A DNA stretch of 63,076 nucleotides from Candidatus Brocadiaceae bacterium (GTDB taxonomy: Bacteria; Planctomycetota; Brocadiia; Brocadiales; Brocadiaceae): the NCBI GenBank assembly GCA_015661205.1, contig JACVXV010000004.1, forward strand, positions 1 through 63,076. Direction: 5' to 3'. Shown here piece after piece: positions 8,245 to 9,294 of this stretch. The notes beneath the pieces are model-generated. The model was given only the letters and a program-made list of their open reading frames with translations, ran no database searches and was not told the origin of the DNA. The stretch's first letter is position 1, and each line of letters starts with the position of its first letter. Position numbers and translations under genes: made by a program.

Positions 8245-8293
8245 AGGAAAAACAAGAGCCATTGCAACGACAACCAATGCTGCAATGGCTCTT
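8245..8293 (-). terminator. Rho-independent terminator of the NrdD-like gene
   Basis: On the minus strand a perfect 13-bp stem (AAGAGCCATTGCA at 8281-8293 and its complement at 8254-8266) with a 14-base loop is followed by GTTTTTCCT. It lies 38 bases beyond the stop codon at 8331. Confidence 0.85.
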
Positions 8294-8330: not shown

Positions 8331-8735
8331 CTACTTAACTGAATATCTTCCGAGGTGTCTGTCGTTTAATTCGCCGATTTTCGACTTATTCCAGTTGGAA
8401 ACCCTGCTGTAATAGCCGACAATCCTCGTTACGCCATGAAGACGTGTAGAAATGCCTGTTTCGAGCGCCGATACGACATGCTCTAAATCCTGACGAATCA
8501 CTGCGTCAATGCTTATGGAAAATGCAGCCTCCAGTTTATGGTTAATAATCTTCAGTGCATGTTCCTGTGGCGTATTTCCGCTAATATCGCCATCGATCTC
8601 AAGGAACTCGTGTCCTTCAATCGTTGCATCAAAAGCATTGAGCTTTTCTTCGATAAACATCTGTACGTCATCGTTTTTAATCCTGCCACCGGCCCTCTTT
8701 GATACTACGGGCATTTCCAGCATAGCCATCGTCAT
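8331..8735 (-). CDS. Standalone glycyl-radical domain like the C-terminus of class III ribonucleotide reductase NrdD
   Basis: 134 residues. The last 35 (VTRIVGYYSRVSNWNKSKI, then GELNDR) match the C-terminal glycyl-radical loop of anaerobic ribonucleoside-triphosphate reductases; G107 would be the radical glycine. The protein contains no cysteine at all, so it lacks both the active-site thiols and the zinc site of full NrdD and cannot be a reductase by itself. Residues 20-95 are helical and charged (FIEEKLNAFDATIEGHEFLE). It may act as a spare radical domain, as YfiD does for pyruvate formate-lyase, or be a relic with a new role. No nrdG activase or full nrdD is nearby. The gene stands alone with its own terminator and a 500-base upstream region. 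Confidence 0.65.
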   Translation of the reverse strand: MTMAMLEMPVVSKRAGGRIKNDDVQMFIEEKLNAFDATIEGHEFLEIDGDISGNTPQEHALKIINHKLEAAFSISIDAVIRQDLEHVVSALETGISTRLHGVTRIVGYYSRVSNWNKSKIGELNDRHLGRYSVK

Positions 8736-8874
8736 TTCTCATCATCTCCTTATAATAAAATCCAGTTAATACCATTATCAATACAGAACAGAAGTCTTTA
8801 ATATATCCACCCCAAGCCTACCCCATTTCAGAAAAACAGCTTTTCGGCCACCACTCTTCCACAGAATATCTGGT

Positions 8875-8888
8875 TACTATATATAGTA
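8875..8888. promoter_or_regulatory. 14-bp perfect palindrome, possible operator
   Basis: TACTATATATAGTA is its own reverse complement. It lies 140 bases upstream of the NrdD-like start in an AT-rich gap (8736-9294) between two divergent genes. No known regulator consensus was matched; the rest of the gap holds no gene that I can support. Confidence 0.35.
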
Positions 8889-9294
8889 TATCGCAGATTA
8901 TTGGACTGATAGTACCATAAATAAAAATATTGTCAAGCGAAAATACCATATTTTGTATGCAATAATATCGAATAATACCACCTATCGCAAAAAGAACGCC
9001 TCCTTACAGCCATTTTACAAGCCTGGAAGGCGTTTGCGGCTGCTATACCTGTTGTATGTCCATCGGCAGCAGGTAGAACGATTATTTTTGACACAGGTAA
9101 TCAAACAGGGTACACTACTTGAGCGATAAACATAGCCAAAGGCCTCTGTTTTTCGAAAAATACGGGAAAAAGCTCCTGTATCCACCCGTTCAAGCGTCGA
9201 AAATCTTACACACTTGGCTATAATTTGGTCGCATAAAATTATGGATATCTTTAGCACATTTACAAATGTAACCCCTTTTAATCAATAAATAATC

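Follow-up and report, generated by a model that had tools for sequence, protein, structure and literature searches.

A standalone glycyl-radical protein of anammox bacteria and phages as a putative trans-acting subunit of class III ribonucleotide reductase

A small gene in the window (the whole stretch of 63,076 nucleotides that was analysed, one contig of a 3.9-Mb assembly) probably encodes a trans-acting glycyl-radical subunit of the class III (anaerobic) ribonucleotide reductase (RNR), a reading to which we assign a probability of roughly 80%. The protein, encoded on the minus strand at positions 8331..8735, is called GRD here. Five observations made directly on sequences underlie this proposal: the separate gene, the invariant glycine, the repeated loss of the in-cis glycine from NrdD with the catalytic residues kept, the gene order and the operator-like sites. 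On a wider scale it is likely that class III RNR exists as a two-chain enzyme whose radical glycine resides on an exchangeable small subunit, that NrdD has repeatedly lost its own glycine in lineages bearing this subunit, and that phages encode only this subunit and use it to drive the NrdD of their hosts. The window's host is presumably an anammox bacterium, as the records of its relatives are named Brocadia, Jettenia and Kuenenia. The gene and its signals are as follows.

8254..8293, minus strand: terminator hairpin of 15 bp followed by a U-rich stretch (folding: -24.6 kcal/mol, z -5)
8331..8735, minus strand: GRD gene, with ATG at 8735 and the stop codon ending at 8331; 134 aa, Cys-free
8343..8429, minus strand: NrdD-like radical loop and tail, residues 103-131, TRIVGYYSRVSNWNKSKIGELNDRHLGRY; NRDD profile 533-560
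8415..8417, minus strand: GGC codon of Gly107, the predicted radical glycine, conserved in homologues
8451..8675, minus strand: N-terminal domain, residues 21-95, predicted alpha-beta-beta-beta-alpha (AlphaFold2); proposed docking domain
8746..8751, minus strand: Shine-Dalgarno sequence AAGGAG, 10 nt 5' of the GRD ATG
8874..8889, minus strand: second NrdR-box-like site, ATACTATATATAGTAA, 13/16, 3' of the -10
8909..8936, minus strand: sigma-70-type promoter TTGACA-16-TACTAT, a consensus match only
8943..8958, minus strand: NrdR-box-like site, ATACAAAATATGGTAT, 12/16, just 5' of the -35

The neighbours of the GRD gene encode a transporter-like protein and a large membrane protein; the GRD gene itself is monocistronic with its own promoter. 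An earlier note on this DNA had described an isolated but real gene for a Cys-free, standalone glycyl-radical domain with its own terminator, and each of these points held up, given the signals listed above and the conservation described below. A terminator scan passed over the hairpin, whose loop exceeds the limit of the scan, and it was detected by folding. The C-terminus of GRD resembles the radical loop of NrdD (GVTRIVGYYSRVSNWNKSKIGEL). In a Pfam profile search, residues 99-127 matched positions 533-560/562 of the NRDD model (E 6.5e-5), with a score under the curated cut-off because the tail alone is present, and the NCBIfam NrdD models matched the same tail. No Pfam model other than NRDD matched GRD at E<=10, which includes Gly_radical (PF01228)/YfiD. 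The comparison with NrdD C-termini and YfiD that the earlier note had proposed thus favoured NrdD, and membership of the pyruvate formate-lyase (PFL)/YfiD family was rejected. The zinc-binding Cys4 site that precedes the loop in NrdD is absent from GRD, as are the ten-stranded barrel and the catalytic cysteines; the barrel is encoded by a separate gene.

Single-chain AlphaFold2 models of the window's GRD and of one Elusimicrobial GRD (mean pLDDT 83-84 for both) show a helix, three strands, further helices, a hairpin around the glycine and a last helix. A Foldseek search of the PDB gave no confident counterpart of the N-terminal domain among solved structures (best E 0.45), and phmmer against the PDB returned nothing significant for it. 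BFVD yielded one viral homologue of 163 aa.

Whole-length homologues were found in 55 of the 59 Brocadiales genomes, the window's included, and every one of them is a separate ORF. By record name, the carriers comprise Brocadia, Jettenia, Kuenenia, Loosdrechtia, Scalindua and Anammoxibacter. The same two-part protein, with an alpha-beta3-alpha domain and a radical loop, also occurs in other Planctomycetota, in Elusimicrobia and in uncultured phages. Among Brocadiales GRDs the pattern TRIVGYxSRxxNWNxSKxxELxDRxxGxY is nearly invariant, while overall identity falls to ~35%. Gly107, whose conservation the earlier note had left to be checked, is invariant among the 67 aligned homologues, and the columns of the loop and tail are invariant or nearly so; such invariance over phyla rules out a chance resemblance to the NrdD loop. 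Within Brocadiaceae, the codon of Gly107 varies synonymously (GGC in the window; GGA, GGG or GGT in others), and dN/dS is ~0.09 overall and 0.05 for the C-terminal part, values that are rough because synonymous sites are near saturation.

A Pfam NRDD search found a full-length NrdD in nearly all GRD carriers. These partner proteins are ATP-cone NrdDs with the CC and RFC cysteines and a Cys4 zinc site. The glycine of the in-cis RxxGY motif is missing from 34 of the 65 aligned NrdDs, including those of lineages f2, f3, f4, f5, f39 and others, and the NRDD match ends at 529-555 in f39 and others. The altered C-termini are diverse: YGIRRLVSHDKVNNW in the Scalindua type, FGIERLDSYDHRLANW in f2, YGINKGGCCSKKVNYW in f5 and, for example, GIQRIDETEVGGAKW in f39. 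The glycine is replaced by S, T, D, N, C, E, H, I, K, P, L or A; in f39 and Elusimicrobia the loop as a whole is missing or displaced, and the Gly-less Elusimicrobial NrdDs stop a few residues past the zinc site. In all aligned Gly-less NrdDs the YC, CC and RFC cysteines and the four zinc cysteines are retained, which is unlike a decaying gene. One f2 genome (G040) retains RTDGY in its NrdD; most Brocadiaceae NrdDs keep RIVGYFSR, and in the Brocadiaceae genome G007 the NrdD reads RIGDYFSR (RIGDY) beside a standalone GRD with an intact RIVGY. On the NrdD tree the glycine label switches 8 times, of which at least 4 are on well-supported branches.

GRD is present in 31 of 34 genomes with a Gly-less NrdD versus 11 of 25 with a Gly-containing NrdD (genomes of known status; Fisher p 1e-4, uncorrected for ancestry). 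The association is clustered by ancestry, and an independent-pairs test had too few pairs to reach significance. As eleven genomes with a Gly-containing NrdD have GRD too, the protein is not simply a compensation for the lost glycine. Gly-less NrdDs without a detectable GRD occur in G033 (96% complete), G034 (77%) and G110 (73%). Two divergent planctomycete NrdDs (in G183 and G118) have RIADY for RIVGY, and no standalone domain was detected with them. In four genomes that combine a Gly-less NrdD with GRD (G149, G179, G036 and G422), no class I/II RNR (PF02867) was found, so that the Gly-less NrdD is apparently the sole RNR there, within the completeness of these assemblies (91-93% where known). 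These sequences suggest that GRD is apparently obligatory where NrdD has lost its glycine.

The genes are linked in some Elusimicrobia. In two of them the order is nrdG, Gly-less nrdD, GRD, and in a third the Gly-less nrdD and GRD overlap or abut; in other Elusimicrobia NrdD contains the glycine and GRD is unlinked. At Brocadiales GRD promoters, operator-like sites were scored against an NrdR-box consensus, and the scores were compared with those of dinucleotide shuffles. Pairs of NrdR-box-like palindromes exactly 31 bp apart were found at 18 of 21 promoters, and most end just 5' of TTGAC, e.g., CTACAACATGTTGTGT-15-ATACAAAATATTGTGT. Similar pairs are found in the nrdR-nrdD regions of some relatives, and the background is low. 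The promoter in the window has two single boxes; the partner of the box 5' of the -35 is degenerate, and the pair at this place scores no better than chance. NrdR itself was present in 14/14 genomes tested.

In the window's genome, the full-length nrdD is split over two contig ends, C45 (profile positions 1-433) and C128 (353-561). Over the 100 residues that both halves cover there are 6 differences, indicating either mixed strains in the assembly or two gene copies. The C128 half retains an in-cis loop (RIVGYFSRINNWNKSKIGELADRHKGNY) and is followed by nrdG, which encodes a radical-SAM protein; the N-terminal half is preceded by nrdR (C45:15291-15728). The earlier note had asked for the full nrdD and its state, and the gene is thus present with its glycine loop kept. 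This genome also encodes a second RNR, a PF02867 frame of 598 aa (C154:24244-25650). PF02867 was also found in G009 but not in several other complete Brocadiaceae; the complete or near-complete genomes G004, G010, G012, G020 and G024 gave no match.

Because the in-cis glycine is mostly kept in the window's family, GRD is there most plausibly a second or replacement radical carrier, judging from these loops. A narrower possibility, which we hold tentatively, is that GRD in this family is purely an oxygen-repair part that, like YfiD, replaces the tip of an NrdD cleaved by oxygen at its glycine. The intact RIVGYFSR of most Brocadiaceae NrdDs and the monocistronic gene with its own promoter are consistent with it, and there is precedent: spare parts have been validated for PFL only, in the form of YfiD and Y06I, which act in this manner, and such parts for other glycyl radical enzymes are speculative suggestions, a question left open by Andorfer et al. 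2021 (PMC8683613). However, a pure repair role leaves the relatives with a Gly-less NrdD and the nrdD-GRD gene order unexplained, and the NrdR-box-like sites point to dNTP demand, not oxygen, as the controlling signal. The earlier note had proposed such a spare domain for oxygen-damaged NrdD. That GRD is a standalone glycyl-radical domain of NrdD type, with NrdD as its likely partner, is borne out, but the reading was too narrow: NrdD is Gly-less in many relatives, where GRD would be a required separate subunit and not a repair part. Repair of oxygen-damaged NrdD by GRD is plausible.

A purely regulatory or decoy role, in which GRD would bind NrdG or occlude the active site of NrdD and never carry a catalytic radical, is unlikely. 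The coexistence of GRD with Gly-containing NrdDs in the window's family would fit this, but the radical glycine itself is invariant, and Gly-less NrdDs would be left without a radical, even in those of their genomes where no class I/II RNR was found. Slightly more doubtful still is that the Gly-less NrdDs use Ser, Thr or Ala as aminoacyl radical while GRD serves another purpose. Some anammox NrdDs do have Ser or Thr at the place of the glycine, and within the PFL-like branch there are enzymes that use an aminoacyl radical on Ser, Thr or Ala (PMC11528403). These enzymes do not explain the variety of the NrdD replacements, which extends to loops that are gone or shifted, and Elusimicrobia encode GRD adjoining nrdD. 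Finally, GRD as a fragment, pseudogene or decaying duplicate of nrdD, a concern of the earlier note that its clearly NrdD-like C-terminal 30 residues would fit, is ruled out by the conservation across the order and the low dN/dS, a conserved N-terminal domain foreign to NrdD, its own promoter and regulation, and the full-length nrdD elsewhere in the genomes.

For the trans-acting subunit, the following mechanism can be envisaged. The alpha-beta3-alpha domain would anchor GRD to NrdD, probably close to the Cys4 zinc site that NrdD retains; the chain is split behind this site. The GRD loop would then sit in the NrdD active site beside the conserved cysteines. Once the loop is in place, NrdG would abstract a hydrogen from Gly107, and the radical would pass in trans from GRD to the cysteines of NrdD. 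Where NrdD has lost its glycine, in Scalindua-type anammox bacteria, many other Planctomycetota and some Elusimicrobia, GRD would be the only radical carrier, and in the window's family it would most likely replace the function of NrdDs inactivated at their own glycine.

Phages carry the domain as well. We retrieved 61 loci from IMG/VR, mostly standalone GRDs, with three full NrdDs among them (L269, L276 and L277). The retrieval patterns leave out the glycine, and all 61 loci have Gly at the position of Gly107. In 33 of the 34 viral records tested no separate NrdD scored above the cut-off, although these records may be fragments; in phages with GRD but no NrdD, GRD would act on the NrdD of the host. 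The neighbouring genes vary: portal-, capsid- and tail-like genes surround one GRD (L255; judged by reading the sequences rather than by profile search), glutaredoxin, a radical-SAM protein and ThyX are found near a second (L223), and a primase-helicase near a third (L246). In one phage (G450) NrdD lacks its glycine and probably bears an intein, and GRD is encoded separately. Among the cultured phages of INPHARED no GRD homologue was found, the lone weak match being a full nrdD. Several viral NrdD frames are 1206-1676 aa long (L269, L276, L277 and L299) and are probably interrupted by inteins. On another viral contig (L225:4989-7406), a glycyl-radical domain shares one open frame of 806 aa with a family A DNA polymerase. 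The second GRD copy of Candidatus Brocadia sapporoensis (L045/L078) is identical in protein sequence to a viral copy (L275), so extra Brocadiaceae copies may be prophage-borne.

The closest known parallels are YfiD/GrcA of Escherichia coli and Y06I of phage T4. Like GRD, these are small standalone proteins of ~14 kDa in which the C-terminus, with a conserved radical glycine near its end, repeats the radical-bearing tip of a large enzyme, and they too are known from a bacterium and a phage; Y06I parallels the GRDs carried by phages. GRD differs in that its tip is of the NrdD and not the PFL type, its large enzyme is often without a tip of its own, and its gene has NrdR-box-like sites in most Brocadiales examined; its N-terminal domain is predicted to be folded, whereas that of YfiD is disordered (PMC8683613). 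The NrdDs of T4, T. maritima and P. copri share the RxxGY radical loop and tail with GRD. In described NrdDs the glycine lies in cis at the C-terminus, and RNR family analyses place the glycyl-radical domain within the NrdD chain (PMC9531940, PMC9669993), whereas GRD places it on a second gene; no account of a class III RNR whose glycyl radical resides on a separate subunit turned up in the open-access papers searched. The split class II RNR NrdJa/NrdJb of Pseudomonas likewise divides a single-chain RNR over two chains (PMC4520616, PMC9669993), but it is of another class and cofactor, and its split carries no radical residue. In phages, nrdD can also be broken into several pieces, by introns, inteins or endonucleases (PMC3653736); unlike those interrupted genes, GRD has an extra domain, its own promoter and a separate genome position.

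If this reading holds, GRD is a natural candidate case of a separate radical carrier in an enzyme essential for making DNA precursors, in anammox bacteria and other organisms, and would explain why some NrdD sequences appear inactive. Through GRD, the transfer of a radical in trans becomes testable in RNR, with the Gly-containing and Gly-less NrdDs that share the same subunit as natural controls. The phage gene may act on the nucleotide supply of the host.

A further pair of genes was seen on a different contig (L166:1-1063, on G333:C81). There, a second, different NrdD-type gene ends without a glycine loop, and ~40 bp behind it a 52-codon ORF with its own AAAGGAGG site encodes RRITGYLVGTIDKWNDAKKAEEAERVKHD. 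This pair is apparently an independent split of another NrdD subtype.
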